Part shown: in pieces, positions 1 through 23,049 of the stretch
Layout: each line of letters begins with the position of its first letter
How positions within the stretch are numbered: the first letter of the stretch is position 1
NCBI GenBank assembly: GCA_030616775.1
Contig: JAUWWQ010000039.1
Location: forward strand, 1-40,453
DNA from: Planctomycetota bacterium
GTDB lineage: Bacteria; Planctomycetota; Phycisphaerae; UBA1845
Direction: 5' to 3'
Length of the DNA: 40,453 nt
Made by a program: the position numbers and the translations under genes
The notes under the pieces: generated by a model
The model's input: only the letters and a program-made list of their open reading frames with translations
Databases searched by the model: none
Told to the model about the DNA's origin: nothing

Positions 1-997
<997 letters not shown>

Positions 998-4934: not shown

Positions 4935-5060
4935 GTCCCGACGCCTGTCTCCCGATGCGTCTTCGTCCCGGATCGCCGGGGTACATCGGGACACATCGGG
5001 GTACGTCGGGATTTGCCCGTGCTCACCCCGGTCCCGACACGGGCAAGCTGACGCTTGCCC
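4935..5060 (+). other. Self-complementary leader segment upstream of the 912-residue surface protein
   Basis: The segment contains GTCCCGAC at 4935-4942 and 5031-5038, its complement GTCGGGA at 5005-5011, and three tandem variants of ACATCGGG at about 4983-5010. Two competing hairpins follow: GCCCGTG/CACGGGC (5015-5021 with 5038-5044) and GGGCAAG/CTTGCCC (5041-5047 with 5054-5060). The last two share bases 5041-5044, so only one can form at a time. No T-run follows. It could be a regulatory leader or accumulated palindromic repeats. I recognise no known riboswitch in it. Confidence 0.4.
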
Positions 5061-5135
5061 ATGCCACTCGCCCGCAGACGTTCAGCTTTTGGTTTCGAGT
5101 CGTATCGTTCACAACTTTTAACAAGGAGAAGAACC

Positions 5136-7874
5136 ATGTACGCGACAAGAGCATTTGGATTGGTGCTTGCTGCCGGCCTGTTGGTATCCACAGGCCCAGC
5201 AAGCGGACAGACCCCGTTGGGCACCGCGTTTACGTATCAGGGGCGACTTACATGGGACGGCGAGGCCGTCAGTGGCCCCTGCGACTTTCAGTTCAGTCTG
5301 TGGGACGAACCCTCGGACGGGAACCAGATGCCTGTGACGGTGACGCTTGAGGTTGAGGAACTGCCCGGTGGTCTGTTCACGGTGCAGTTGGATTTCGGGG
5401 AGAACGTGTTCCAAGGCAACGCCCGTTGGCTGGAGATGAGCGTCTGTTGCCCGTCACCCTGCACACCAGAAGTGTTGTCACCGCGTCAGGAGCTAACGCC
5501 CGCGCCTCACGCATTGGCGTTACCCGGTCTACGGACGCAACAGAATATGATCAGTCCGAATCTGCTTGGCGGGTATGCCGGAAACGTCATCAATGACACT
5601 GTCGTCGGTGGGACGATCAGTGGTGGCGGGGCAAGTGAGGCTGACCCTGCTGCGGGCACGTGCGATGCTGATCCCTCCATCCTGTGCCAGGACGACGAGG
5701 ACTGCGTCATCAACAACGGACGCTGTGTGTCAGAGATCATTGGCGGCAGGTGCAGCGACGACCCAGCCATATTCTGTCTTACCGATGAGGATTGTGTAGC
5801 CGGCACATGCCAGCCCGATGCGAGCGTCGGGACGTGCAGTGAGACGTTCGAGACCTGGTGTGATGAGGATGGCGATTGTCCTGCTGAGGAAATCTGTGTA
5901 CCGGGCCAAATCCCCGGCACGTGCAGCGACGACCCTGCCATTGCGTGCTTGACAGACGTCGATTGTCCAAGCGGCACATGTGAAGAGCCCCAGGTTCCAG
6001 GTACTTGCGCCGACGACCCCCTAATCGTCTGTCTCGTCGATGACGACTGCGTGATTGACAACGGCCCTTGCAACCCTAATGCCGACGTCGGCCGGTGCGG
6101 CGGAGACCCTGGCACGTTATGTCTGACGGACGACGATTGCGTCCTTGATGAGGGGCCCTGCGTGCCGGACGAGAACCTCGGCGTCTGCCTGGAGGACCCC
6201 TTTGTGTACTGTGATCTGATTCCGGACAGCTGTCCCCCAGAGATCGGACCCTGCGTAGTTGTTCCGCCGTGGATCGGGAGGTGCAGCCAGAATCCCGAGA
6301 TCATCTGTTGGGATGATAGCGACTGTCTCACCCGCGACACTGGGACCTGCGAACCGTTTGCCACTACAAACGTCGTGGTCGCCGACCATGGGAGTGTTGG
6401 CGGGGGAATGGGGAATACAGCCGGCGGCGAGGAGCTTGGAACACCCCCCGGCGCTTACGCGACCGTTGGCGGCGGCCGGGACAACACGGCCAGCGGCAAG
6501 TACAGCACGGTCAGCGGAGGGAGAAGCAACACGGCCAGCGGGAAATACAGCGCTATCGGTGGTGGCTACAGTAACGAGGCCAAGAGCTACGCTGCTACCA
6601 TCGCTGGAGGTTATGACAGCGAGGTCGCGGGGACATACGGCACCGTTGGCGGCGGCCGCGAGAATAAGGCCAGCGGCGACTACAGCACGGTCAGTGGAGG
6701 GGAGCGCAACAAGGCCAGCAAACACTCCGCCACCGTTGGCGGTGGCCGGTACAACACGGCCAGCGGGGACGAAAGCACGGTCGGCGGAGGAGCTAGTAAC
6801 GTTGTCGGGGCTTACGACGGGGGCGCGATCCTCGGAGGATACTCCAACAGCGTTTTCGGCTACTGGAGCACGGTCGGGGGGGGCTGGGACAACGGCGTTG
6901 ACGACCACTACAGCGCCATTCTCGGAGGAGAGTCCAACAGCGTTTTCGGCCACCACAGCACGGTCGGGGGGGGACGGGACAACGGCGTTGACGACTACTA
7001 CAGCGCCATTCTCGGAGGATACTCCAACAACGTTGACGCCGAGTACAGCGCGATCCTCGGAGGACTCTACAACTACGTTGACGGCGACTACAGCGCGATC
7101 CTCGGAGGAGGCTTCAACGGCGTTTCCGGCGAGCACAGCGCCATCGTCGGAGGAGCCGGCAGCAGCAACTCCGGCGACCATTCGGTCGTGGTCGGGGGCT
7201 CTGGAAATAGCATCAGCGCATCCGCTGACTACTCCATGGCCTTCGGAAACAACGTGGGCGTGACCAGCAGCTACAGGGTCGCTCTGTTCAGTGATGACTA
7301 TCCTGGCTGCCTTGGGATCAACCGCGACTCGACGATCAACCGCCGCATTCATGTTGGGACGAATACCAGCAATGGCAACGGAGCGTATCTTACCAACGGC
7401 GGCGTGTGGACGGATGGTAGCAGCCGCGAGTGCAAGACAAACTTCCAGACCCTCGAACGCAAGGACCTGATGAGTCGAATCCGCGGTCTGCCCGTCGAGG
7501 CCTGGGAGTACGAAGGCACCGGTGAAAGGCATATTTTCCCTTGTGCCGAGGACTTCCAGGACTCCTTCGACGTCGGAGTGCTGAAGGAGGACGGCACACG
7601 GGAACGCCAGTATCTGGCTGCGATGGATGTCGCCGGAGTGGCCCTGGCTGGGGTCAAGGCCCTCGACGAAATGATCAAGGAGAAAGATGCCCGGATTGCG
7701 GAACTCGAGGCGCGCCTCGCCGCGTTGGAGCGGGCGGTCGGACTGGATGATCACCGTGCGCGGGGCGCGGACTCGGCAGGGCTTGGCGGGGCGACGATCA
7801 CCGCCGCCCTGGCGCTTTTGGGACTGACCGGCTTCATTATGCGCGCCCATTCAAGGCGGGGAGGTGTACGATGA
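5136..7874 (+). CDS. Surface protein: Cys-rich repeats, YadA-like head, S74-type chaperone end
   Basis: A 912-residue probably exported protein. It opens with a signal peptide (about 1-24, ending near ASG), then a beta-rich module with FTYQGRLTWDG and RWLEMSV. Residues of about 165-400 hold about ten cysteine-rich units of the type GTCSDDPAIFCLTDEDC. Next comes a run of 14-16-residue units (GGGRDNTASGKYSTVSG and variants, about 415-695), the pattern of YadA-type trimeric adhesin heads. The C-terminal part (SSRECKTNFQTL, then VEAWEYEG) resembles the self-cleaving intramolecular chaperone of phage tail spikes (peptidase S74). A coiled coil (about 848-868) and a terminal hydrophobic helix with an Arg-rich tail follow. 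The start at 5136 has AAGGAG seven bases upstream; the in-frame codon at 5055 would bury the signal peptide. It is the first gene of an operon and its TGA overlaps the next ATG. A trimeric adhesin is inferred. Confidence 0.82.
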   Translation: MYATRAFGLVLAAGLLVSTGPASGQTPLGTAFTYQGRLTWDGEAVSGPCDFQFSLWDEPSDGNQMPVTVTLEVEELPGGLFTVQLDFGENVFQGNARWLEMSVCCPSPCTPEVLSPRQELTPAPHALALPGLRTQQNMISPNLLGGYAGNVINDTVVGGTISGGGASEADPAAGTCDADPSILCQDDEDCVINNGRCVSEIIGGRCSDDPAIFCLTDEDCVAGTCQPDASVGTCSETFETWCDEDGDCPAEEICVPGQIPGTCSDDPAIACLTDVDCPSGTCEEPQVPGTCADDPLIVCLVDDDCVIDNGPCNPNADVGRCGGDPGTLCLTDDDCVLDEGPCVPDENLGVCLEDPFVYCDLIPDSCPPEIGPCVVVPPWIGRCSQNPEIICWDDSDCLTRDTGTCEPFATTNVVVADHGSVGGGMGNTAGGEELGTPPGAYATVGGGRDNTASGKYSTVSGGRSNTASGKYSAIGGGYSNEAKSYAATIAGGYDSEVAGTYGTVGGGRENKASGDYSTVSGGERNKASKHSATVGGGRYNTASGDESTVGGGASNVVGAYDGGAILGGYSNSVFGYWSTVGGGWDNGVDDHYSAILGGESNSVFGHHSTVGGGRDNGVDDYYSAILGGYSNNVDAEYSAILGGLYNYVDGDYSAILGGGFNGVSGEHSAIVGGAGSSNSGDHSVVVGGSGNSISASADYSMAFGNNVGVTSSYRVALFSDDYPGCLGINRDSTINRRIHVGTNTSNGNGAYLTNGGVWTDGSSRECKTNFQTLERKDLMSRIRGLPVEAWEYEGTGERHIFPCAEDFQDSFDVGVLKEDGTRERQYLAAMDVAGVALAGVKALDEMIKEKDARIAELEARLAALERAVGLDDHRARGADSAGLGGATITAALALLGLTGFIMRAHSRRGGVR
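6843..7022 (+). repeat. Two tandem 90-bp direct repeats in the YadA-like head
   Basis: The 90-base unit starting TCCAACAGCGTTTTCGGC at 6843 recurs at 6933 with only a few differences, and a degenerate third start follows at 7023. Each unit codes for 30 residues, or two head repeats. The high DNA identity suggests recent duplication within the coding repeat, which would change head length in steps of two coils. Confidence 0.75.
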
Positions 7875-8990: not shown

Positions 8991-9310
8991 CGCATAAACG
9001 GTCATGCACCATTCCGGCAGGTGGTCTCCGTCTTGTTCGCGGGCCGGCGACAGCGATAAAGCGGGCACCGATTCGACTCCATGACGCCGCGGCTCCCGAC
9101 TCGCGACCCTTTGTGCCACAAGGACTTAGCGAAAGCCTGTTGCTCCGAGGGTCGAAAGCCATCGCTCGCTATCCCGGATGAACCTAGTTTTTTTCTTTTT
9201 CCTGCAGGTCAAGCCTGGACTGCTGGACCCCCAATGTGTTACAATGGCCTCAACACTGTGGGGTAGTGTTACAGCTCCTTCGGGAGCGGCTTCTGCAAAA
9301 GGGGGATATC
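8991..9310 (+). promoter_or_regulatory. Intergenic region with candidate promoter and 5'-UTR hairpins for the protease
   Basis: I see no gene here. A T-rich tract lies at 9187-9200. A candidate promoter is TGGACT (9216-9221), an 18-base spacer and TACAAT (9240-9245), giving a start near 9252. Two small hairpins follow at once: AACACT/AGTGTT (9252-9270) and GCTCC-TTCG-GGAGC (9274-9287), the latter with a stable TTCG tetraloop. A Shine-Dalgarno AGGGGG then lies before ATG 9311. A 5'-end hairpin of this kind could stabilise the mRNA; this is inference. Confidence 0.45.
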
Positions 9311-10162
9311 ATGTATCGCTTCTGTACGACGGTTCTAGGCGTGGTTGTATTGGCATCCATGGGTCAAGCTGGGGCTAGGCAGCCTTCCGTGGGAGGTGCT
9401 ACAGAGACTCGTGACGGCCCAGCGAGTGATCGCAAGATCCAGGCAGGCGTACTGGGTGGCGGCGAGTTTGGCCGACCCGGCAAGCGCTGGCCGGAGGTCC
9501 ATCCCTCGCGCGTGCTCGTGCGATTCAGGCCCGGCGTCACGAGCGCAGCCAGGGAAGATGCGCACGACGGGGTGAGGAGCCTCCGGACGATCAGGGAGTT
9601 CCGCGCAGTCCGCGGTCTGATGCTCGTTGAAGTCCCCGACGGCAAGGTCGGTGAGACGATCGAGGCGTACCGCAAGAATCCCGGCGTCTTGTACGCCGAG
9701 CCCGACTACACAGTCTGCGCCGACGCTATCCCGAACGATCCGGACTTCGGTATCCTTTGGGGGCTTCGGAACACGGGGCAGCTAATCAACGGTGATCCCG
9801 GCACGCCCGGCGCGGATATCCGCGCGACCGACGCCTGGAACCTGTGGACCGGCGACCCGAACTTCAAGATTGCGGTCATCGACTCCGGCGTAGACTACAA
9901 CCATCCCGATCTGGAGGCGAACATCTGGACCAATCCCGGCGAGATCCCTGACAACGACGTCGACGACGATGGCAACGGCTGGATCGACGACGTGCACGGG
10001 TACGATTTCCGCAACAACGACGCTGATCCCCTTGATGACCACAGACACGGCAGCCACGTGGCGGGGACCATCGGCGGCGTCGCCAACAACGGGGTGGGTG
10101 TCGCCGGCGTAAACTGGCAGTCCAACATTGTGGCGTTGAAATTCATCTGTGCAACAGGGTGA
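9311..10162 (+). CDS. Subtilisin-like (S8) serine protease, N-terminal part up to an in-frame TGA
   Basis: This is the first 283 codons of a secreted subtilase. Start ATG 9311 has AGGGGG upstream and opens a signal peptide (MYRFCTTVLGVVVLASMGQA). A propeptide-like region follows (RVLVRFRPGV at about 67-76, ending VLYAEPDY near 132). The catalytic domain begins with IAVIDSGVDYNHPD (catalytic Asp191), an Asp-rich calcium-binding-type stretch (NDVDDDGNGWIDD), and HGSHVAGTIGG (catalytic His246). The frame meets TGA at 10160-10162, after KFICATG. The same frame then continues with GHTSDAIRAMDY, exactly what should follow in this family. The oxyanion Asn and catalytic Ser are therefore on the other side of the stop, and this piece alone cannot be an active protease. 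A nonsense mutation, a sequence error or readthrough are the options. Confidence 0.85.
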   Translation: MYRFCTTVLGVVVLASMGQAGARQPSVGGATETRDGPASDRKIQAGVLGGGEFGRPGKRWPEVHPSRVLVRFRPGVTSAAREDAHDGVRSLRTIREFRAVRGLMLVEVPDGKVGETIEAYRKNPGVLYAEPDYTVCADAIPNDPDFGILWGLRNTGQLINGDPGTPGADIRATDAWNLWTGDPNFKIAVIDSGVDYNHPDLEANIWTNPGEIPDNDVDDDGNGWIDDVHGYDFRNNDADPLDDHRHGSHVAGTIGGVANNGVGVAGVNWQSNIVALKFICATG

Positions 10163-13100
10163 GGTCACACCTCCGATGCCATCCGTGCGATGGATTACGT
10201 TATCGCCAACGACATCAAGGTTTCGAACAACAGTTGGGGCGGCGGCGGGTTCTCTCAAGCGCTATACGATGTCATCGACACCTCGCAGGCGATCGGGCAC
10301 ATCTTCGTGGCCGCCGCCGGGAATGATACGCTGAACAATGACGCTACGCCGCACTACCCATCCTCCTACGATCTTCCGAACATCATCTCCGTGGCCGCAA
10401 CCGACAACGACGACGCCCTGGCATCCTTCTCGAACTGGGGTTTGAACTCCGTTGATCTTGGCGCACCGGGCGTCGCGACTTACAGCACGGTCCTCGGGAC
10501 GGACTACGCTTTCCTGAGCGGCACGTCGATGGCCAGCCCGCATGTCGCAGGCGTCGTCGCGCTGATCATGAGCCGCAGCCCCCAGTTCACACCGCAGCAG
10601 GTACGTGATCGGATCCTCGAGAGCGTCCGGCCAGTCGCATCGCTCGAGGGCATCACCATGACTGGTGGCGTGCTCAACGCCAGCTCCGCTCTCGGTGACT
10701 GCAACGGCAACGGCATCGACGACGCTCTGGATATCGCCGGCGGCACCAGCGAAGACTGCACTGGTAACGGCATACCCGATGAATGCGAGCCCGATTGCAA
10801 CACCAACGACATCGCCGATAGCTGCGACATCGCCTTCGGCACCAGTGACGACTGCGACGGAATGGGAAGACCCGATGAATGCGAGCCGGACTGCAACACC
10901 AATGGCATCGCCGACCAGTGTGATATTGCCGAGGACACCAGCGGAGACTGCAACTTCAACGGTGTGCCCGACGAGTGCGAACCTGGAGGGGCCGAGGACT
11001 GCAACAACAACGGTGACCTCGATCTGTGCGAACTCTTCCTGGGGCTGGCGACTGACTGCAACCGGAACGACGTTCCCGACGCCTGCGATGTCCTGCATGG
11101 CACGAGTGAGGATTGCAATACGGACCTGTTTCCCGACGAATGCGAAACCGCTCTGGAAATACTCATGGCCGGTGACGCAAGTCAGGCCTTCGTGGACAGC
11201 ATCAAGGACCTCGGCAACCACATAACCCGAGTCTCCGGACACTTTAGCACTTTCCCCTTCGATCTGTCACCGTACGACATGCTGATGTTCATGCCGGGCG
11301 GCGTGCCGGATATCTCGCCCTGGTTCTACGAGATCGTGGACGAGTTCGTCGAGGCCGGCGGTGGACTGATTCGCATCCAGGATCCCCCCGCATTGTTGCA
11401 GTTTCGAGGGCTTGCGAGCCCGGTACTCGACGCCGTCGGGTGGGACCTGCGAGCCAACACGCAGGTTGTCAATGCGAGCAGTCCCGTCGTTCACGGCCTC
11501 GCCTCCACCTCCGCTCTGACCGGATACAGTGCATCATACACCCTCAAGCCCGAGGCCGATGTAGTGATCGCCTGGGACGACGGCGAGCCGATGACCGTCG
11601 CTTACGCGCACGGGGCTGGTAGAGTGGTCTATTTCAATGATCTCTGGGCAGCGTATCCGGATCTGTGGGGAGGAGATACGGCCTACGGGTTGATGTTAAT
11701 GGAGAATACACTCGACTTTGTCAAAGCGCCGGATAGAGACTGCAACCTGAACGACATCCCGGACGACTGCGACATCGACGCCGGAACCAGCGAAGACTGC
11801 AGCGGCGACGGGGTCCCCGACGAGTGTGAACCCGATTGCAACGAAAACGGAACCGCGGACAGTTGTGACATTCTGGACGGCACCAGCGACGACATCGACG
11901 GCAACGGCGTGCCCGACGAGTGTAGCCTGGTTTTCTACGTCGATCACGACGCCATCGGGCTCGACAACGGCTCGAACTGGGTCGACGCTTTCACCGATCT
12001 GGAGGACGCGCTCACCAGCGCAGCCCTGATCGCGGAAACTGACGTCGATACGCAGATCTGGGTCGCGGAGGGTAAGTACGCGCCGTTGCGCCGAACCGAT
12101 CCAGAGGACCCGCGCTCCGCCACCTTTCATCTGATCAAGTATGTAGCCCTCTACGGCGGCTTTCAAGGTGGGGAGGCCCGATTCGACCAGCGGGATGTGC
12201 GCAACAACGTCACGATTCTTAGCGGGGATTTGGCCGGCGACGACGGACCCAATTTCCTGAACAACGAGGAGAACGCCTATCACGTCGTGACGGGCGACGA
12301 GATGAACGCGTCAGCGATACTCGACGGCTTCACGATTACAGGTGGTCATGCATACGAAGGAGATCAATTCGACCGGCGAATGCACGGGGCCGGTATGTCC
12401 GTTTACGATGGGAGCCCCACTGTGGCCAATTGCGTCTTTGTGGCCAACCGAGCCTTCGACGCGGCCGGAATGTACCTTGCCGGAAGCAGCCCCATCGTAG
12501 CAAACTGCCTGTTTGTCGGCAATCGCGCAGGTAGACGAGGGGGTGGATTGTACCTCGGTGGCGGCGCACCGGGGATCACCAACTGTCTCTTCAGCGGCAA
12601 TACCGCCGGCGACGATCCCGGGTACTGTGGACGCGGTGGTGGCATGGAAACGAGAGGTAGTGGTAGCCCGGTTCTCACGAACTGCACCTTCTCGGGGAAC
12701 GAAGCCTTTGCGGGGCCGTGTCCCAGTCACGGCGGCGGCGTATCGAACGCCGGCAATGTCACCGCGACGCTGGCCAACTGTGTCCTCTGGGGCAACCACG
12801 ACAGCGGCCCGACCGACGTGTCTGCCCAGATCAGCCACGAGCTGGCGGCCGTGTCGGAAGTGAACTACAGTTGCATTCTGGGCTGGACGGCCCAGGATGG
12901 GGGTATCGGCAACATCAACGCTGATCCGACATTCGCCGATTCCGACGGACCGGACGACAGCCTCGGGACCATCGACGACAATCTTCGCCTTGCTGCCGGT
13001 TCCCCCTGTGTTGATGCAGGCAACAATGCAGCCGTACCACCTGACACACCCGATCTGGACCGGGACGGTAACACGAGCGAGCCGACACCGCTCGACCTCG

Positions 13101-14506
13101 ACGGTGCCCCAAGAGCCTTCGACGATCCCTCCACCACGGACTCGGGCCACGGCACACCACCGATCGTCGATATGGGCGCCTACGAACACGGCGACTGCAA
13201 CGGCAACGGCACCGCGGACGTGGATGATATTGCCGTCGGTACGAGTGAGGATTGCACTGGGAACGGTGTTCCCGACGAATGCGAACCGGACTGCAACGGT
13301 AATACCATTGCGGACAGTTGTGACCTCGACGAAAGCACCAGCGAAGACTGCAACGGCAACGAAGTGCCGGACGAGTGCGATCTGGCCGACCCGACGATTG
13401 GCGACTGCGATGGCAACCTGACGCCCGACAACTGCCAATCGGACACCGACACGGACGGACTGATCGATGAGTGCGACGGGTGCCTCTACGATGTCAACAA
13501 AACAGCCCCTGGGGGTTGCGGTTGTGGCGTACCTGATGACGACACTGACGGTGACACCGTGCCCGATTGCCTGGACATCTGCGCCGGTTTCGATGACCTG
13601 ATTGACTCCGACAGCGACGGCATCCCCGACGGTTGCGACCTTTGCCCTGGCTATGATGACTTCGAGGACGCGGACGGCGACGAAGTGCCAGACGGCTGCG
13701 ACGATTGCCCCTATGAGCCGGCGTTGGCCGAGCCGTCTGAGCCGGGCTACGAGATCACCTGCGACGACGCAATCGACAACGATTGTGATACCCTCACCGA
13801 TGAAGCTGATTCGGACTGCCTGTGCCAGCTTGCTGACGCGGTAGCACCGGAGCCGGTCGCCTTCGAGAAGAACCGTTACCTTTCGTTCTCGAGTGCCAAC
13901 TCCGGCCGGCGAACCGCGGTCCGCGTCACGCTGACGGATTTGCCCGCACCGTTCGATGCGCTCGACGATCAGACAATGTGGGTCGGCCAGCCGCGAGAAA
14001 TCAGCGAGAACTCCGGCAAGGTTAATCACGAACCGGGCTGGCCGGACTCTATGAGTGCCAACCTGCAATGCACGCCGTACTGCATGGACTGGGCTGACGT
14101 GGGACTGTTACACGTCACCGATGACGAGATTGTCCCCGGCGCAGTTTATAACGTGCAGGCCATCGACTGCGCTTGTGATTTCGGCAACGACGCAGACTAC
14201 TCGGCGCCGCTTACGATAACCACGAGCAAGTGGGGTGATCTGGTGGGGACATGTGCGGTCATTCCGTGCACGCCGCCTGATGGAGTCGTGAACATGGGCA
14301 CCGATGTCACGGCGTGCGTGGACAAGTTCAGGAACTTGGAGGGCGCGGTGCTAAAGTCCAGGGCGGACATCGAGCCCAACTTCCCGGACTGGCTGGTGAA
14401 CATTGCAGACGTGACGTATGTCCTGGATGCGTTCCGCGGATTCGCCTATCCGGCAGCGCAAACGCCTCCGGCCTCCGGCTGGCCCGGACCGGACGGATGC
14501 CCGTAA
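10163..14506 (+). CDS. Continuation of the subtilase: catalytic end, calcium-binding-type repeats, beta-helix, C-terminal module
   Basis: In frame with the preceding piece after TGA 10160-10162; the first ATG is 10190 and has no Shine-Dalgarno, so independent restart is doubtful. It completes the protease with AAAGN (oxyanion Asn338 of the joined frame) and SGTSMASPHVAG (catalytic Ser406). Asp/Asn/Cys-rich repeats follow (units like GNGIPDECEPDCN, about 1-17 residues apart in several clusters). Next is a glutamine-amidotransferase/ThuA-like region (EILMAGDASQ to ENTLDFV). Then a right-handed beta-helix region (GGFTITGG-type coils; ANCVFVANRA, TNCLFSGNTA), more Asp-rich units of thrombospondin-3 type (DSDSDGIPDGCDLC), and an IDNDCDTLTDEADSDC metal-binding-type motif. 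The end is the module shared with the 353-residue protein. The joined frame is about 1730 codons. It is probably cell-surface or secreted. Confidence 0.83.
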   Translation, partial: GHTSDAIRAMDYVIANDIKVSNNSWGGGGFSQALYDVIDTSQAIGHIFVAAAGNDTLNNDATPHYPSSYDLPNIISVAATDNDDALASFSNWGLNSVDLGAPGVATYSTVLGTDYAFLSGTSMASPHVAGVVALIMSRSPQFTPQQVRDRILESVRPVASLEGITMTGGVLNASSALGDCNGNGIDDALDIAGGTSEDCTGNGIPDECEPDCNTNDIADSCDIAFGTSDDCDGMGRPDECEPDCNTNGIADQCDIAEDTSGDCNFNGVPDECEPGGAEDCNNNGDLDLCELFLGLATDCNRNDVPDACDVLHGTSEDCNTDLFPDECETALEILMAGDASQAFVDSIKDLGNHITRVSGHFSTFPFDLSPYDMLMFMPGGVPDISPWFYEIVDEFVEAGGGLIRIQDPPALLQFRGLASPVLDAVGWDLRANTQVVNASSPVVHGLASTSALTGYSASYTLKPEADVVIAWDDGEPMTVAYAHGAGRVVYFNDLWAAYPDLWGGDTAYGLMLMENTLDFVKAPDRDCNLNDIPDDCDIDAGTSEDCSGDGVPDECEPDCNENGTADSCDILDGTSDDIDGNGVPDECSLVFYVDHDAIGLDNGSNWVDAFTDLEDALTSAALIAETDVDTQIWVAEGKYAPLRRTDPEDPRSATFHLIKYVALYGGFQGGEARFDQRDVRNNVTILSGDLAGDDGPNFLNNEENAYHVVTGDEMNASAILDGFTITGGHAYEGDQFDRRMHGAGMSVYDGSPTVANCVFVANRAFDAAGMYLAGSSPIVANCLFVGNRAGRRGGGLYLGGGAPGITNCLFSGNTAGDDPGYCGRGGGMETRGSGSPVLTNCTFSGNEAFAGPCPSHGGGVSNAGNVTATLANCVLWGNHDSGPTDVSAQISHELAAVSEVNYSCILGWTAQDGGIGNINADPTFADSDGPDDSLGTIDDNLRLAAGSPCVDAGNNAAVPPDTPDLDRDGNTSEPTPLDLDGAPRAFDDPSTTDSGHGTPPIVDMGAYEHGDCNGNGTADVDDIAVGTSEDCTGNGVPDECEPDCNGNTIADSCDLDESTSEDCNGNEVPDECDLADPTIGDCDGNLTPDNCQSDTDTDGLIDECDGCLYDVNKTAPGGCGCGVPDDDTDGDTVPDCLDICAGFDDLIDSDSDGIPDGCDLCPGYDDFEDADGDEVPDGCDDCPYEPALAEPSEPGYEITCDDAIDNDCDTLTDEADSDCLCQLADAVAPEPVAFEKNRYLSFSSANSGRRTAVRVTLTDLPAPFDALDDQTMWVGQPREISENSGKVNHEPGWPDSMSANLQCTPYCMDWADVGLLHVTDDEIVPGAVYNVQAIDCACDFGNDADYSAPLTITTSKWGDLVGTCAVIPCTPPDGVVNMGTDVTACVDKFRNLEGAVLKSRADIEPNFPDWLVNIADVTYVLDAFRGFAYPAAQTPPASGWPGPDGCP

Positions 14507-14616: not shown

Positions 14617-17600
14617 TCAACGACGCCCCCGGCCAGACTTCGTCGTCTCCAATTGCCGCAACTTCCGGTCAAACTCGGGCAGCAACGGCAGGTTGTGGCG
14701 CCGCGCGAAGGCCCGAATATCACTCGCGTCAATGACACCGTCGCCATTCAGGTCGGCCCTGTCCGCTCCCTTGATCCGCAGACACTCAACTTCGACAGTG
14801 GCCAAAGGCATCGCCTGTGTGGCGTTCAGCACGCTATCGACGCCAATGATGGTGACGACGCCGTCCCTCCTGATGCCGGCACTACCGCCGCACCCGTCCA
14901 CCGCTTCGCCGACTGTCAAGAAATTGACCTGAATCGCGGTGAAGTCGTCGGTTCCCTGGACGCCGTTACCGGTCGCGTCTGCCCCTGTACTCAGGCCGGG
15001 CTCGATCGGCGTATTGAATCTGGCGGCCAATATCGAGAAGTCGGTAATATCCACCAATCCATCTTGTGATACCACGCCTGTCTGGAAATCGCCGGAGAGG
15101 AGCTGGGATGCACCCCTCAGGTCGACCGTGGCAGCGCATGAGCTGAACGACGGCGCCGCCAGCCGACGCAGGGTGTGACCTTCCCTGACACTAATCCATC
15201 CGGCATCGACATCGACATTATCCAACACCACCGTGGCGAATCCGGATTCATCGATCACCACAGGCAGGACGCGCGTATCTGTCGATCCGCCGCAGGTCGT
15301 GATCACGAACGTCGTATCGCGCGTGATGGGGGCGAGCAGGCTGTTAATCGCGTCGAATTCGAGCTCGACCGTGATCTGGGCCGTATCATTGCTGAACACG
15401 CAGCTTCCGGATTGGCATTCGGCGTCCGTGCAGGGTATACCGTCATCACACGCCGTACCGTCCGTTACAGGCGTCAGCGTGTCACAGTTGCCCTCCAGAC
15501 CAAGCGGATCGCACGAAGCCGTGTTGCATTGATCCCCGGCGCCCGAACAATCCGGCAAAGCGCCGCCCGTGCACGCACCCGATTGGCACGTCTCGCCCAC
15601 GCTGCAGACGCCAAACCCGTCGTCGCAGGAGAGACCTTCGTTGATCGGCCCGCCGGGCGTGTCACAGTTACCCTCCGCACCGGCCGGATCGCATGTACTG
15701 TCGGCGTTGCATTGATCGCCGGTACCGGTGCAGTCCGGCGGGGCACCGTTCGTACAGACGCCGGCTTGACAGGTCTCTCCCACGTTGCAGGCATTGCCGT
15801 CATCACAGGCCGTTCCATCGGACACCGGCGTCCAGGTGTCACAGTTGCCTTCCGTACCCGCAGGATCACACGAGGCCGTGTTGCACTGATCACCCGCACC
15901 GCTGCAGTCCGGCGGCGCACCACCGGTACAAACACCCGTCTGACACGTTTCACCGACGTTGCAGGTATTGCCGTCATCACACGCCGTCCCATCGGACACC
16001 GGCGTCCACGTGTCACAGTTGCCTTCCGAACCCGCCGGATCACACGAGGCCGTGTTGCACTGGTCACCTGCACCGCTGCAGTCCGGCGGCGCACCACCCG
16101 TGCAAACACCTGTCTGACACGTCTCACCGACGTTGCAGGCGTTGCCGTCGTCGCAGGCCGTCCCATCTGACACCGGCGTCCAGGTGTCACAGTTGCCTTC
16201 CGCTCCTGCAAGATCGCATGAGGCCGTGTTGCACTGATCACCCGCGCCGCTGCAGTCCGGCGCGCTGCCACCGGTGCAAGTACCCGATTGACACGTCTCG
16301 CCGACGTTGCAGGCATCGCCGTCATCACACGCCAGTCCTTCGTTGGTTGGCGTCCACGTGTCACAGTTACCTTCCGCTCCTGCAGGATCGCACGAGGCCG
16401 TATTGCACTGATCACCCGCACCCGTACAATCCGGGGCGCTACCGCCGGTACACATGCCTGTCTGACATGTTTCGCCGACGTTGCAGGCATCGCCGTCATC
16501 GCACGCCGTCCCATCGGACACTGGCGTCCAGGTGTCACAATTGCCTTCCACACCCGCCGGATCACACGAAGCCGTGTTGCATTGATCACCCGCGCCCGAG
16601 CAGTCCGGCGGCGCACCGCCCGTGCAGACGCCGGCTTGGCACGTCTCACCGACGTTGCAGGCGTTGCTGTCGTCACACGCCGTTCCATCGGATACCGGCG
16701 TCCACGTATCACAGTTGCCTTCCGCACCCGCCGGATCACACGAGGCCGTGTTGCACTGATCACCGGCACCACTGCAGTCCGGCGGCGCACCACCGGTACA
16801 AACGCCCGTCTGACACGTCTCTCCCACGTTGCAGGCATTGCCGTCATCACACGCCGTTCCATCGGACACCGGCGTCCATATGTCACAATTGCCTTCCGCA
16901 CCCGCAGGATCACAAGACGCCGTGTTGCACTGATCCCCGGCGCCCGAACAATCCGGGGCGCTGCCACCGGTGCATAGGCCGGTTTGGCACGTCTCTCCCA
17001 CGTTGCAAGCGTTGCTGTCGTCACACGCCGTTCCATCGGACACCGGCGTCCACGTGTCACAGTTGCCTTCCGCACCCGCGGGATTGCATGAGGCCGTGTT
17101 GCACTGATCACCCGCGCCCGAACAATCCGGCGGACTGCCGCCCGTGCATAGGCCTGATTGACACGTCTCGCCGGCGTTGCAGGCGTTACCGTCGTCACAC
17201 GCCGTGCCGTCTACCACCGGCGTGAGGATGTCGCAATTGCCTTCCGCACCGGCTGGGTCGCACGAGGCCGTGTTACACTGATCACCCGCGCCGCTGCAGT
17301 CCGGGGGAGCGCCGCCGCTACAGATACCGCCTTGACATGTCTCACCAACGTTGCAGGCATCAGCGTCATCGCAGGCTGTTCCGTTCGCCACCGGCGTCAG
17401 CGTGTCGCAGTTGCCTTCCGCACCGGCCGGATCACACGAGGCCGTGTTACATTGATCACCTGCGCCGCTGCAGTCGGGTGGCGCACCGCTCGTACAGACG
17501 CCGGCCTGGCACGTCTCACCGACGTTGCAGGCGTTGCCGTCGTCGCAGGCCGTTCCATCGGACACCGGCGTCCATGTATCACAATTGCCTTCCGCTCCTG

Positions 17601-20600
17601 CCGGATCACACGAGGCCGTGTTGCATTGATCACCCGCACCCGAACAATCCGGGGCGCTACCTCCGGTACACACGCCGGTCTGACATGTTTCGCCCACGTT
17701 GCAGGCGTAGCCGTCGTCGCACCCCGTGCCGTTAGCCACGGGCGCCCACGTGTCACAATTTCCTTCCGCACCGGCCGGATCGCACGAGGCCGTGTTGCAC
17801 TGATCACCCGCGCCGGAACAATCGGGTGCAATACCGCCCATACAGACACCCGTTTGGCACGTTTCGCCGATGAGACAGGCGTCGCCGTCGTCGCAGTCCG
17901 TGCCATCGGTTACCGGCGTCCATGTGTCGCAGTTGCCCTCCGCGCCGGCCGGATCACAGGAAGCCGTGTTGCATTGATCGCCCGCACCGGAGCAGTCTGG
18001 CGGCGTGCCTCCGGTACAGACGCCGGTCTGACACGTCTCACCGAGATTGCAGGCGTCGCCATCGTCGCAGGCCAGGCCTTCGTTGGCTGGCGTCATCGTA
18101 TCGCAGTTGCCCTCCAAGCCGGCCGGATCGCACGACGCCGTGTTACATTGATCACCCGCTCCGGAGCAGTCGGGCGGCGCACCACCGGCACAGACTCCGG
18201 TCTGGCAAGTCTCGCCTACATTGCAGGCGTCGCCATCGTCACAGGCCAGCCCTTCGTTGATTGGCTCGCCCGGCGTGTCGCAGTTGCCCTCGGCTCCGGC
18301 CGGATCACAGGTGCTGTCTGCGTTGCACTGATCCCCCGTACCAAAGCAGTCCGGCAGACCGCCGCCGGTACACGAACCCGACTGACAGGTCTCGCCTACG
18401 TTGCAGGCGTTACTGTCATCGCAGGCCAGGCCATCGGTCACCGGCGTCCACGTGTCGCAGTTGCCTTCCAAACCGGCCGGATCGCAAGAGGCCGTGTTGC
18501 ATTGATCACCCACCCCGGAGCAATCGGGTGGGGCACCCCCGGTACAGACACCGGTTTGACACGTTTCGCCGACGTTGCACGCGTCGCCATCGTCACACGC
18601 CAGCCCCTCGTTTGTCGGCGTGTATTCACAAGATCCCGCGTTACACACGTCTATCGTACAGGTGTTACTATCGTCGCAGTCAGGATCGTCTTGGCATGTA
18701 TCACATGAGTCTGTTGCCTCGTTGCAGAACTCCGCAGGCAGGCATGGATCGCCTGTGCCGACGCACACGCCGGCGCTGCATTCATCCGTGAGCGTACAGA
18801 ACCAGCCGTCGTCGCACGTCGTGCCGTCAAGCACTGGCGTCCACGTGTCGCAGTTGCCTTCCGCGCCCGCCGGATCACACGAGGCCGTGTTGCACTGATC
18901 GCCGGCACCGCTGCAGTCGGGCGGCGCACCTCCGCTGCAGACACCGGTTTGACACGTTTCGCCGATGTTGCAGGCGTTGCCGTCGTCGCACGCGGTCCCA
19001 TCGAGCACCGGCGTCCACGTGTCACAATTGCCCTCCGTACCCGCCGGATCGCACGAGGCCGTGTTGCACTGATCACCCGCGCCGGAACAATCGGGTGCAA
19101 TGCCGCCCATACAGACACCCGATTGGCACGTTTCGCCGATGAGACAGGCGTCGCCGTCGTCGCAGTCCGTGCCATCGGTCACCGGCGTCCACGTGTCGCA
19201 GTTGCCCTCCGCGCCGGCCGGATCGCACGAGGCCGTGTTACATTGATCACCTGCGCCGCTGCAGTCGGGCGGGGCACCTCCGGTACAGACTCCGGTCTGA
19301 CAGGTCTCACCCACGTTGCAGGCGTTGCCGTCATTGCACGCCGTCCCGTTCGCCACCGGTGTCAGCGTGTCGCAGTTTCCTTCTGCACCGGCCGGGTTGC
19401 ACGAGGCCGTGTTGCACTGATCACCCGCACCCGAGCAGTCGGGTGGACCACCGCCGGTGCAGACGCCGGTCTGGCATGTCTCGCCGACGTTGCAGGCATC
19501 GCCGTCATCACAAGCCAGGCCTTCGTAGGCCGGCGTCAGAGTGTCGCAGTTGCCCTCCAGGCCGGCCGGATCACACGAGGCCGTGTTGCACTGGTCGCCC
19601 GCGCCGGAGCAATCCGGCGGGGCACCCCCGGTACAGTCACCGGTCTGACAGGTCTCACCCACATTGCAGGCATTGCCATCGTCGCAGGCCAATCCTTCAT
19701 TGATCGGACTGCCGGGTGTGTCACAGTTTCCCTCGGCACCGGCCGGGTCGCATGTGCTGTCCGCGTTACACTGATCACCCGTGCCCGAGCAATCCTGCGG
19801 TCCACCACCGGTACACACACCGCTCTGACACGTCTCACCGATGTTGCAGGCCTGCCCGTCGTCGCATGCCGTGCCATCGGATACCGGCGTCCACGTGTCG
19901 CAGTTGCCTTCCGTGCCGGCCGGGTCGCATGAAGCGGTGTTACACTGGTCGCCGGCGCCGCTGCAATCGGGAGGCGCACCACCCGTGCAAACACCCGTCT
20001 GACACGTCTCACCAACGTTGCAGGCATTGCCGTCATCGCAGGCTGTCCCATCGGACACCGGCGTCCATGTGTCACAGTTGCCCTCCGCTCCTGCTGGATC
20101 GCACGAGGCCGTGTTGCACTGATCACCTGCACCCGAGCAATCCGGGGCGCTACCACCGGTGCAAGTACCCGATTGACACGTCTCGCCGACAAGGCAGGCA
20201 TTGCCGTCATCACAGGCCAGGCCTTCGTTGGTCGGCGTCAATGTGTCGCAGTTGTCCTCCGCACCGGCCGGGTCACACGAGGCCGTGTTGCACTGATCAC
20301 CGGCACCACTGCAGTCCGGCGGCGCACCGCCCGTACAAATACCCGTCTGACACGTCTCACCAACGTTGCAGGCATTGCCGTCGTCACACGCCGTCCCATC
20401 GGACACTGGCGTCCATGTGTCACAATTGCCTTCCGCTCCTGCAGGATCACACGAGGCCGTGTTGCACTGATCACCCGCGCCCGAGCAGTCCGGCGGGGCA
20501 CCGTTCGTACAGACGCCGGCTTGACAGGTCTCTCCCACGTTGCAGGCGTTGCCGTCATCACACGCCGTGCCATCGGATACCGGCGTCCACGTATCACAGT

Positions 20601-23049
20601 TGCCTTCCGTACCCGCAGGATCACACGAAGCCGTGTTGCACTGATCACCCGCACCCGAACAATCCGGTGGCGCACCACCGGTGCAGACACCCGTCTGACA
20701 CGTTTCACCAACGTTGCAGGCATTGCCGTCGTCACACGCCGTTCCATCGGACACCGGCGTCCACGTGTCACAGTTGCCTTCCGAACCCGCTGGATCACAC
20801 GAGGCCGTGTTGCACTGATCACCCGCACCCGAGCAATCAGGGGCGCTACCGCCGGTGCATACGCCGGTTTGACATGTTTCGCCTATGTTGCAGGCATCAC
20901 CGTCATCACAGGGCGTACCGTCAAGCACCGGCGTCAGCGTATCACAGTTGCCTTCCGCTCCTGCAGGATCGCACGAAGCCGTGTTGCACTGATCACCCGC
21001 GCCGCTGCAGTCCGGCGCGCTACCACCGGTGCAAGTACCCGATTGACACGTCTCGCCGACAAGGCAGGCATCGCCATCATCACAGGACAGGCCTTCGTTG
21101 GTTGGTGTCAATGTGTCACAGTTACCTTCCGCTCCCGCCGGATTGCACGAGGCCGTATTGCACTGATCGCCGGCACCACTGCAGTCCGGTGGCGCACCAC
21201 CGGTACAAACACCCGTCTGACACGTCTCACCGACGTTGCAGGCATCGCCGTCATCACAGGCCAGGCCTTCGTTGGTCGGCGTCAATGTATCGCAGTTACC
21301 CTCGGCACCCGCCGGATCACACGAAGCCGTGTTGCATTGATCACCCGCGCCCGAGCAGTCCGGCGGCGCGCCAGCCGTGCAGACACCGGCTTGACAGGTC
21401 TCTCCCATGTTGCAGGCATCGCCGTCATCACAAGCCGTACCATCGGACACCGGCGTCCACGTGTCACAGTTACCTTCCGCACCCGCCGGATCACACGAGG
21501 CCGTGTTGCACTGATCACCCGCACCGCTGCAGTCCGGTGGCGCACCACCGGTACAAACGCCCGTCTGACACGTCTCACCGACGTTGCAGGCATCGCCGTC
21601 GTCACACGCCGTCCCATCGGACACCGGCGTCCATGTGTCACAATTGCCTTCCGCACCCGCCGGATCACAAGACGCCGTGTTGCATTGATCGCCCGCACCT
21701 GAGCAATCCGGCGGACTGCCGCTCTGGCACGTACCGCCTGAGCAGGTATCACTAACGGTGCACGCGTCACTATCGTCGCACGGATCGATATTGTTGGTAT
21801 ACTCGCAGGTGCCCGCGTTACACACGTCATCCGTGCACACGTTCGTATCATCACAATCGATGTCGAATTCACACTCCGCGACGTCGAACTCCACGACGAA
21901 CCAAGCGGCATCAGCCGGAACCGATCCGGTAATTTCGCGGGTAACGGTCAAGGTCGTTGAATCGGTGATGGTGGTGGTAAACATTCCGGGCCCGATCGCA
22001 TCATCGGCGGTATAGCTGTGCGTACCGCCCCACCGACCTCCAGCAGAGGAGAGCAAAGCCGCGGCGCGCGTTGTATCGACCGCGGTGAGGCCTGCCGTCA
22101 GGCTCGTATCTGAAGAGCTGAAGTTGAGCAATCCCGACTGCACCTGGGTGAAATCGGTGAACTCGACAGCCTCCCACGCGTACTCGATCGTGCTGGCCGT
22201 GGCCGCGCGCTCGATAGTGATCTCGCTCGGACTGCTGAACCGGGCATGAAGGAAGTTCGTGCCGGTCCCGCTACTGCCGCTCCGCCAGCTCAGCAGCACG
22301 ATTGATTTGGCCAGATCGACGGTTGTGATCGGTACCGTTGCTGAGGCCTGGGCAGTCGTCAACGACCCGATACCCCGCTGCACCGAGGCATCCGTGTACT
22401 CCACGACCTGCCAGTCGGCTGTCCTGTCGGTCCCAGTAGTGTGTGTGATCTCGAGATTAGTGGACGACGTGAGACGGGCGCGGAAATAGTCATCGCCGCC
22501 GTAGGTTTGATCGTTGGCTCCCATAGAGCCCGAGATCAGCACAAAGCTCCGCGACATATCGACAGCGTTTATGGTCACGTTGCCGGCACTATCGACAGCG
22601 ATGAAGGTCCCACGTTGGACCGAAACGCCGCTGGAGAACTCGACGACGTACCATCGGATCGTGAGGTCGGTGGGACTACTTGCGTTGGCCCGGTAAAACC
22701 GAATGTTGATCGCAGCGGTGATCTGACCCCGGACCTGACCGTCGGCCGGCTGATTGCTATCGCCCTGGTAATTGAAAAAGAGTATGGATGTCGCAGGATC
22801 GACGAAGTTAATCGGTATATTGACTGTTTCAGCAGAGGATCCCCCGGCCGGCATAACGAGTGTCCCGCTCTGGACGGAGTTCAACGTCGCTGCCCCAGCG
22901 TTTTCCACAGCCACAAGCATTGAGCCCGCAACCAAGGCGATGATGGGCAAGGCGGTCCGTCTATGGCCAGCCGGATGCAGACCGGCACCTTGCAGTGTCC
23001 CCCTACCCGTGTCCGACCGCGATTCCCAGGAATGGACTACACTTGGCAT
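14617..23049 (-). CDS. Giant secreted protein with about 35 tandem 58-residue, 8-cysteine repeats and C-terminal dockerin-like modules
   Basis: A 2810-residue protein of unknown function. A basic N-region precedes a signal-like hydrophobic segment (ALPIIALVAGSMLVAVENAGA, about 33-53). About four beta-rich modules of 80-95 residues follow (each with VVEF/VVEY and VQRG or VQSG; up to about 395). A linker (CDDTNVCTDDVCNAGTCEY) leads to about 35 copies of a 58-residue unit with eight cysteines (DCSGAGDQCNTASCDPAG, GNCDTWTP, CDDG, ACNVGETCQTGVCTGG). Copies 12, 19 and 34 are of a longer ADSTCDPAG type, and copy 17 is interrupted by about 75 other residues. After the array come a beta-rich segment and two dockerin type I-like calcium loops (DITDFSILAARFN; LNGDGVIDASDIRAF). 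It is probably a calcium-binding, disulfide-rich surface fibre; this is inference. GTAGAGG precedes the start. It converges with the protease gene. Confidence 0.85.
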   Translation of the reverse strand: MPSVVHSWESRSDTGRGTLQGAGLHPAGHRRTALPIIALVAGSMLVAVENAGAATLNSVQSGTLVMPAGGSSAETVNIPINFVDPATSILFFNYQGDSNQPADGQVRGQITAAINIRFYRANASSPTDLTIRWYVVEFSSGVSVQRGTFIAVDSAGNVTINAVDMSRSFVLISGSMGANDQTYGGDDYFRARLTSSTNLEITHTTGTDRTADWQVVEYTDASVQRGIGSLTTAQASATVPITTVDLAKSIVLLSWRSGSSGTGTNFLHARFSSPSEITIERAATASTIEYAWEAVEFTDFTQVQSGLLNFSSSDTSLTAGLTAVDTTRAAALLSSAGGRWGGTHSYTADDAIGPGMFTTTITDSTTLTVTREITGSVPADAAWFVVEFDVAECEFDIDCDDTNVCTDDVCNAGTCEYTNNIDPCDDSDACTVSDTCSGGTCQSGSPPDCSGAGDQCNTASCDPAGAEGNCDTWTPVSDGTACDDGDACNVGETCQTGVCTGGAPPDCSGAGDQCNTASCDPAGAEGNCDTWTPVSDGTACDDGDACNMGETCQAGVCTAGAPPDCSGAGDQCNTASCDPAGAEGNCDTLTPTNEGLACDDGDACNVGETCQTGVCTGGAPPDCSGAGDQCNTASCNPAGAEGNCDTLTPTNEGLSCDDGDACLVGETCQSGTCTGGSAPDCSGAGDQCNTASCDPAGAEGNCDTLTPVLDGTPCDDGDACNIGETCQTGVCTGGSAPDCSGAGDQCNTASCDPAGSEGNCDTWTPVSDGTACDDGNACNVGETCQTGVCTGGAPPDCSGAGDQCNTASCDPAGTEGNCDTWTPVSDGTACDDGNACNVGETCQAGVCTNGAPPDCSGAGDQCNTASCDPAGAEGNCDTWTPVSDGTACDDGNACNVGETCQTGICTGGAPPDCSGAGDQCNTASCDPAGAEDNCDTLTPTNEGLACDDGNACLVGETCQSGTCTGGSAPDCSGAGDQCNTASCDPAGAEGNCDTWTPVSDGTACDDGNACNVGETCQTGVCTGGAPPDCSGAGDQCNTASCDPAGTEGNCDTWTPVSDGTACDDGQACNIGETCQSGVCTGGGPQDCSGTGDQCNADSTCDPAGAEGNCDTPGSPINEGLACDDGNACNVGETCQTGDCTGGAPPDCSGAGDQCNTASCDPAGLEGNCDTLTPAYEGLACDDGDACNVGETCQTGVCTGGGPPDCSGAGDQCNTASCNPAGAEGNCDTLTPVANGTACNDGNACNVGETCQTGVCTGGAPPDCSGAGDQCNTASCDPAGAEGNCDTWTPVTDGTDCDDGDACLIGETCQSGVCMGGIAPDCSGAGDQCNTASCDPAGTEGNCDTWTPVLDGTACDDGNACNIGETCQTGVCSGGAPPDCSGAGDQCNTASCDPAGAEGNCDTWTPVLDGTTCDDGWFCTLTDECSAGVCVGTGDPCLPAEFCNEATDSCDTCQDDPDCDDSNTCTIDVCNAGSCEYTPTNEGLACDDGDACNVGETCQTGVCTGGAPPDCSGVGDQCNTASCDPAGLEGNCDTWTPVTDGLACDDSNACNVGETCQSGSCTGGGLPDCFGTGDQCNADSTCDPAGAEGNCDTPGEPINEGLACDDGDACNVGETCQTGVCAGGAPPDCSGAGDQCNTASCDPAGLEGNCDTMTPANEGLACDDGDACNLGETCQTGVCTGGTPPDCSGAGDQCNTASCDPAGAEGNCDTWTPVTDGTDCDDGDACLIGETCQTGVCMGGIAPDCSGAGDQCNTASCDPAGAEGNCDTWAPVANGTGCDDGYACNVGETCQTGVCTGGSAPDCSGAGDQCNTASCDPAGAEGNCDTWTPVSDGTACDDGNACNVGETCQAGVCTSGAPPDCSGAGDQCNTASCDPAGAEGNCDTLTPVANGTACDDADACNVGETCQGGICSGGAPPDCSGAGDQCNTASCDPAGAEGNCDILTPVVDGTACDDGNACNAGETCQSGLCTGGSPPDCSGAGDQCNTASCNPAGAEGNCDTWTPVSDGTACDDSNACNVGETCQTGLCTGGSAPDCSGAGDQCNTASCDPAGAEGNCDIWTPVSDGTACDDGNACNVGETCQTGVCTGGAPPDCSGAGDQCNTASCDPAGAEGNCDTWTPVSDGTACDDSNACNVGETCQAGVCTGGAPPDCSGAGDQCNTASCDPAGVEGNCDTWTPVSDGTACDDGDACNVGETCQTGMCTGGSAPDCTGAGDQCNTASCDPAGAEGNCDTWTPTNEGLACDDGDACNVGETCQSGTCTGGSAPDCSGAGDQCNTASCDLAGAEGNCDTWTPVSDGTACDDGNACNVGETCQTGVCTGGAPPDCSGAGDQCNTASCDPAGSEGNCDTWTPVSDGTACDDGNTCNVGETCQTGVCTGGAPPDCSGAGDQCNTASCDPAGTEGNCDTWTPVSDGTACDDGNACNVGETCQAGVCTNGAPPDCTGTGDQCNADSTCDPAGAEGNCDTPGGPINEGLSCDDGFGVCSVGETCQSGACTGGALPDCSGAGDQCNTASCDPLGLEGNCDTLTPVTDGTACDDGIPCTDAECQSGSCVFSNDTAQITVELEFDAINSLLAPITRDTTFVITTCGGSTDTRVLPVVIDESGFATVVLDNVDVDAGWISVREGHTLRRLAAPSFSSCAATVDLRGASQLLSGDFQTGVVSQDGLVDITDFSILAARFNTPIEPGLSTGADATGNGVQGTDDFTAIQVNFLTVGEAVDGCGGSAGIRRDGVVTIIGVDSVLNATQAMPLATVEVECLRIKGADRADLNGDGVIDASDIRAFARRHNLPLLPEFDRKLRQLETTKSGRGRR
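15390..21720 (-). repeat. Coding tandem array, about 35 x 174 bp
   Basis: A 6.3-kb array with a 174-base period inside the giant gene. Because 174 is a multiple of 3 and the repeats lack stops in several frames, long antisense open frames run through it; they are not genes. Higher-order structure is visible. Copies 6-7 (about 20510-20850) match copies 32-33 (about 15770-16060). The unit with MGGI at 17821-17950 is nearly identical to the one at 19087-19216. An interruption of other cysteine-rich sequence lies at about 18610-18840. Confidence 0.92.

Follow-up and report, generated by a model that had tools for sequence, protein, structure and literature searches.

Locus and gene layout

The window, the whole stretch of 40,453 nucleotides analysed here (contig JAUWWQ010000039.1 of a Planctomycetota bacterium), carries on its minus strand an open reading frame for a 2810-residue protein. 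An earlier note, made from the sequence alone, had described an exported protein with about 35 eight-cysteine repeats behind four N-terminal beta modules; we counted 35 units, and the beta modules are real. Features are given below; G001 is a congener.

14617..23049, minus strand: complete ORF of 2810 aa, predicted to encode an exported protein of several domains; AGAGG 3 nt upstream of the ATG
22891..23049, minus strand: N-terminal region, signal-peptide-like, ending AGA (hydropathy scan)
21877..22881, minus strand: four beta-sandwich modules, residues 57-391, predicted H-type-lectin-like fold (head)
21709..21873, minus strand: Cys-rich, CTDC-like cap with 9 Cys at residues 393-447; G001 has a counterpart
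15379..21708, minus strand: array of 35 eight-Cys units, residues 448-2557
18598..18816, minus strand: 73-residue CTDC-like insert within the array, a landmark common to G001
14620..15378, minus strand: C-terminal module (tail), residues 2558-2810, with a beta-rich region, dockerin-type loops, a third Ca-type loop and a basic tail
14713..14760, minus strand: best Dockerin_1 loop, residues 2764-2779

Residues 31-54 form the sole strongly hydrophobic segment of the protein in a hydropathy scan, and this signal-peptide-like N-terminus makes export probable, as the earlier note had supposed. There are 305 cysteines: 9 before the array, 292 in residues 448-2557 (the earlier figure of roughly 280 was a slight undercount) and 4 after it. 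Since the total is odd, at least one cysteine must be unpaired or bonded to another chain. Profile searches of the 2810 residues found no carbohydrase catalytic domain, and neither a known Pfam adhesive domain nor a stalk domain, the combination that defines fibrillar adhesins.

Neighbours in the window include a GT2 glycosyltransferase, an SIS/CBS protein, an ExbD-like protein, a secretin, PilM and a thioredoxin-like ORF; judged by sequence, none shows a functional link to the gene. One promoter-like site lies 491 bp upstream, which we do not take as evidence because shuffled sequences average 2.6 such sites. Elsewhere in the window, two plus-strand ORFs (9236-10162 and 10190-14506) are in the same frame and form one subtilase (Peptidase_S8) frame split by a single in-frame stop, matching profile positions 3-88 and 104-273. 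A 939-aa plus-strand ORF (5055-7874) with 45-bp (15-residue) and 90-bp repeats is weakly beta-roll-like (LbR_Ice_bind, 24.3 bits, below cut-off). The contig edge truncates a 16S rRNA gene (1-997, minus strand), which could serve to place the organism.

Regularity and divergence of the array

Each unit starts with the motif DC.G.GDQCN and consists of two four-Cys halves, A and B. Measured from this start, 31 of the 35 units are 58 aa long, two are 60 and one is 61; the remaining one holds the 73-residue insert. The cysteine spacing 6-4-8-11-5-5-4 is exact in 30 units, and the other five differ by one or two residues or hold the insert. Tandem Repeats Finder scored the array at 2964, with 34.5 copies of 174 bp.

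The description of the repeats as near-identical holds for the protein (the 31 units of 58 aa are on average 84% identical in pairwise comparison) and fails for the DNA, where 30 in-register units share a mean of 79.1% and a maximum of 93.1%. Among these 30 units, differences at codon positions 1, 2 and 3 of the minus-strand frame number 2975, 2061 and 10750; mean pS is 0.58 and mean pN 0.094, for a pN/pS of about 0.16. A scan for exact DNA repeats within the gene, at word lengths of 71 bases and above, found none. The lack of such repeats and the mostly synonymous differences mark the array as old and under purifying selection. Its copy number could instead be an assembly artefact, the refutation that the earlier note had named, and the array does break the assembly in both congeners: in G001 the contigs stop within the array, and in G002 there is a run of N. 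Misassembly is nevertheless disfavoured by the absence of long exact repeats, the distinct synonymous signatures of the units and their ceiling of 93.1% DNA identity, and we consider it extremely unlikely. Within the array a seven-unit block was duplicated later: units 0-6 and 26-32 have a mean identity of 0.878, a value reached in 0 of 10,000 permutations.

Absence of basic residues

Lys, Arg and His are all missing from the 2110 residues of the array; Asp and Glu together number 349. In G001, K/R/H are likewise missing from array-containing stretches of 951 and 294 residues (1245 total). Among the 30 units, none of 60 distinct residue replacements has K, R or H as its target, against a codon-based expectation of 7.4-9.3 (probability of none 4e-4 to 4e-5, assuming independent replacements, from which duplicated units depart somewhat). 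More widely, after leaving out identical copies and ORFs with fewer than three units, 8 of 56 distinct ORFs have no K or R in the array span, and the median K/R content is 1.7% within the span versus 4.6% outside. This absence of basic residues argues for selection for what would be a polyanionic, trypsin-proof rod.

Predicted structure of the units

The earlier note had proposed modelling three or four repeats. A four-unit model (45-row alignment), built without ions or partner chains, has a pLDDT of 94.8 and predicts two short beta hairpins per unit, with a pTM of 0.63 that leaves the inter-unit angle free. Foldseek searches of the PDB and BFVD returned nothing at E<=0.001 for this model. 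Echoes of the ADAM disintegrin/Cys-rich region and of an Entamoeba lectin were rejected as too weak (best E 0.036, VIA Z at most 2.6); that weakness does not show the predicted fold to be new.

The composition has also to be weighed as that of a Ca2+- or metal-binding matrix protein, in which Asp-rich loops (CDDG.AC, CDPAGAEGNCD) would bind Ca2+ and the rod would swell or stiffen. The 349 acidic and zero basic residues fit such a role, as does a very faint match to S_100 (8.7 bits against a cut-off of 22). Inside the array, however, no profile of a Ca-binding family reaches its cut-off, and the hairpins were predicted with no ion present, so that we regard this role as quite unlikely.

Relationship of the unit to Dicty_CTDC

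No named family passes for the unit in Pfam or NCBIfam profile searches; DUF7107 gave a sub-threshold match of 10.3 bits, and a PDB sequence search only matches at E>4. The slime-mould repeat Dicty_CTDC (PF00526, cut-off 27 bits) has no match at E<=10 when the whole protein is searched. Genome-wide it has 87 matches at E<=10, of which 26 exceed the cut-off alone and three more with their neighbours; only two of them, scoring 19.6 and 11.5 bits and both below the cut-off, fall in this gene, and the better one lies at 18616-18681 in the insert region. None of the 35 units reaches the Pfam cut-off.

Another contig of the same genome (C93) carries two ORFs with 51-residue A-B units, a CTDC half followed by CDDGDACTTxDxCSxGxCVGGPPLD, and the A half of these units does pass the Pfam cut-off. 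The 58-residue unit aligned to them in hhalign with a probability of 95.8% and a score of 46.0. In 300 permutations that preserved the Cys columns the mean score was 14.9 and the maximum 29.65, so that none reached 46.0. A double unit compared with a single-module CTDC alignment gave no significant match (probability 1.3). Because the observed score beats every Cys-preserving permutation, we conclude from these alignments that the unit probably derives from a CTDC-type A-B pair, though it falls outside the Pfam definition. The earlier view of the repeat as a family of its own with no named domain, which a profile search was to check, is thus half right: no named family passes, and the unit is nonetheless homologous to CTDC pairs in its own genome. 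Relatives in Myxococcota have an A half nearer to canonical CTDC; one of them (L103) has 18 CTDC stretches that total 24.6 bits, below the cut-off. A search of the plasmid collection gave no match. Literature on CTDC repeats, planctomycete surface proteins and fibrillar adhesins, mostly outside subscription journals, yielded no description of the repeat in Planctomycetota.

A further alternative is that the protein is a structural part of a coat or sheath outside the cell, its repeats also cross-linking chains by disulfides and its head incidental. It draws on analogy with the proposal for Dictyostelium coat proteins and with the eggshell-membrane protein CREMP (passages of PMC3068167), on the listing of the Dicty_CTDC proteins ecmA and ecmB as matrix proteins (passage of PMC4931340), on the odd cysteine number and on the many other CTDC-type proteins in the genome. 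Against this, canonical units have an even eight cysteines and the model is confident without partners; the genome has one 35-unit gene only, the next closest array found having 3-4 units; and it lacks a YTV wall protein. We think a coat or sheath unlikely.

The head

The four head modules are 81-92 aa each, and the others are 27-29% identical to the first. One module, modelled from a four-row alignment (pLDDT 88.8), is predicted to be a six-strand beta-sandwich. Its top structural neighbour is discoidin II (Z 8.7, rmsd 2.2, 79 aligned residues, 15% identity), followed by discoidin I (8.2), phage tailspike tips (8.1 and 7.7), an R-pyocin fibre (7.4) and Helix agglutinins and SLL-2 (7.0-7.3), although a Z near 8 can, by the comparison tool's own note, reflect a common arrangement. 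Foldseek gave no match at E<=0.001 (best E 0.0059), and a genome-wide search with Pfam H_lectin (PF09458) found nothing at E<=10. We call the predicted head H-type-lectin-like because several carbohydrate-binding tips occupy the top structural matches, and in the model the modules resemble H-type lectins in their six-strand fold.

The tail and possible partners

Searched alone, the C-terminal 253 aa score 28.1 bits for the type I dockerin (Dockerin_1, PF00404; cut-off 22.9); in the whole-protein search the score is 21.7, below the cut-off. The GC-type dockerin (NF041540, cut-off 29) gave 23.3 bits here and 26.9 for the G001 tail. The two dockerin-like loops of the earlier note are there as a dockerin-type pair, with a third loop that it had missed. 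The same tail, 50% identical, stands behind a cohesin-PKD/SprB protein in the same genome.

Three cohesin matches in the genome exceed the cut-off, all on one contig (C30), in ORFs that also bear CTDC-type or eight-Cys repeats or the tail of the window protein. That contig (G000; L011, L012) holds a cluster of secreted ORFs that combine cohesin, CTDC/eight-Cys and PKD/SprB repeats and the dockerin-type tail. These three cohesins, together with 12 further Dockerin_1 matches in the genome at E<=0.001, are what would be looked for in a cohesin-dockerin assembly, in which the tail docks into the cohesin-bearing Cys-rich proteins as part of a cellulosome-like or surface network. The protein has no carbohydrase catalytic domain, though, and its dockerin is only putatively of the pairing type; an assembly of this kind is very unlikely in our view.

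Contig C24 has one VKOR and one DsbA match, oxidation machinery that counts in favour of a disulfide-stapled stalk. Because both sit in 469-aa frames, a VKOR-DsbA fusion is suggested by the sequence.

Relatives and exchange of modules

Counts here include the window's own genome. The eight-Cys unit was found at E<=0.001 in 37 of 60 genomes and at E<=1e-10 in 17 of 51 family members. Named loci among the best matches belong to Phycisphaerae/Planctomycetota MAGs, then to Deltaproteobacteria and Myxococcota; scattered other taxa may be binning errors. The head is found at 59% identity in G018 alone and more weakly in G005, G006 and G017 (5 of 40 genomes), and the tail in 19 of 40, at 90% identity in G002 and 63% in G001. 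In G006 (L159), copies of the lectin-like head module end an M64-peptidase/fn3-type protein, and G005 (L158) is alike by translation.

The G001 congener keeps the cap, insert and tail and has a different head, its cap-to-tail joint being inferred across two contigs. Before the insert there are 17 units in the window protein and 9 in G001, counted to the insert only, as full-array totals are not readable in the congeners; this difference between the same landmarks bears out the earlier idea that length scales with copy number. A tree of units clusters them by species (4 changes, against a null mean of 9.9 and a minimum of 7 in 500), which argues that most copies date from after the species split or have been homogenised since.

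None of 16 other window ORFs tested matched the G001 loci L046, L047, L148 and L149, and at the G002 tail locus (L144) the single match to one of them was over 191 residues at 35%. Runs of N adjoin or lie upstream of the Cys-rich arrays L144, L146 and L155 in the chromosomes of G002 and G010.

Other arrays are paired with Kelch, FG-GAP, subtilase or P-domain modules, and weakly with M10; because of these partners the array appears to be a general extracellular stalk. Since the partners include proteases, the array might serve as a spacer outside the cell in general and not specifically as the stalk of an adhesin.

Interpretation

Taken as a whole, it is somewhat more likely than not that the gene encodes a fibrillar-adhesin-like surface stalk, polyanionic, stapled by disulfides and tipped with lectin-like modules. 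The four head modules would bind sugars. The 35 units would form a long, acidic, K/R/H-free rod or fibre, with about four disulfides per unit, that keeps the head away from the cell and withstands trypsin-like proteases. The dockerin-type tail would anchor the stalk to the cell surface, perhaps by way of cohesin-bearing proteins from the same genome. Duplication of units would set the length, and the head would be swapped in evolution, as seen against one congener and in other taxa. On the other side, no curated adhesive domain passes and no anchor has a proven function, dockerin_GC being below its cut-off.

A broader proposal, which we offer tentatively, is that bacteria use the eight-Cys unit as a stalk module whose hairpin-stapled fold is its own, and that selection keeps it free of K/R/H for protease-proof, polyanionic, very long rods; Phycisphaerae and myxobacteria would mount interchangeable heads on it (lectin, propeller, protease), and this genome would use it for an extracellular disulfide matrix linked by cohesin and dockerin.

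The repeat appears to descend from a matrix repeat already known in slime moulds and not to be a wholly unknown domain, and the protein hints at a way in which such bacteria may make tough fibres outside the cell. New here are the K/R/H-free array, the predicted lectin-like head, the recurring tail, the congener head exchange and the cohesin, VKOR and DsbA matches in the genome. If the stalk reading is right, a disulfide-stapled stalk without basic residues joins a short list of bacterial stalk materials and ties bacterial proteins to slime-mould matrix repeats, and to eggshell fibres by analogy only. Two to four units would make an assayable repeat whose modelled fold lacks a convincing solved match, and the protein would be a candidate for tough extracellular layers in planctomycetes outside the YTV-bearing order.

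Comparison with known systems

The YTV wall proteins of Planctomycetales (PMC8567305, in part) are Cys-rich envelope proteins of the same phylum; PF07639 has no match in this genome at E<=1, and we therefore see no connection with the wall proteins known from planctomycetes. Fibrillar adhesin-like proteins likewise combine a head, a repeated stalk and an anchor-like tail in one chain, but their stalks are Pfam stalk domains, and the word cysteine is absent from the main text of that study (PMC8286594). H-type lectins and the discoidin C-terminal domain share the predicted head fold and differ in that the head has no Pfam H_lectin match and 15% identity.

With Dicty_CTDC, the repeat of the Dictyostelium matrix proteins ecmA and ecmB (PMC4931340, in part), the array shares a tandem four-Cys module, CDDGxxCTxDxCxxxxGxC, in exported proteins. 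The A half here is longer (33 versus 26 residues), and the window protein has 35 homogeneous copies, no K/R/H and no unit over the Pfam cut-off. Dicty_CTDC is among the families without known structure in the table of a paper on contact-based repeat modelling (PMC8078820).

CREMP, as described in passages of PMC3068167, alternates four-Cys modules in a 59-residue eight-Cys pattern within the disulfide-rich fibres of the eggshell membrane, and two of its repeats fold with 8 disulfides, only when oxidised. Alternating four-Cys modules, high conservation and arrays that hinder assembly are common to both. CREMP is a vertebrate protein with conserved Lys, whereas the window array has none; its spacing is 4-5-8-6-4-5-8-11, against 5-5-4-7-6-4-8-11 here, and its C-X4-C-X5-C-X8-C pattern differs from the 6-4-8-11-5-5-4 of 30 of the 35 window units. 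By analogy alone, CREMP would be the closest of these systems in working principle.
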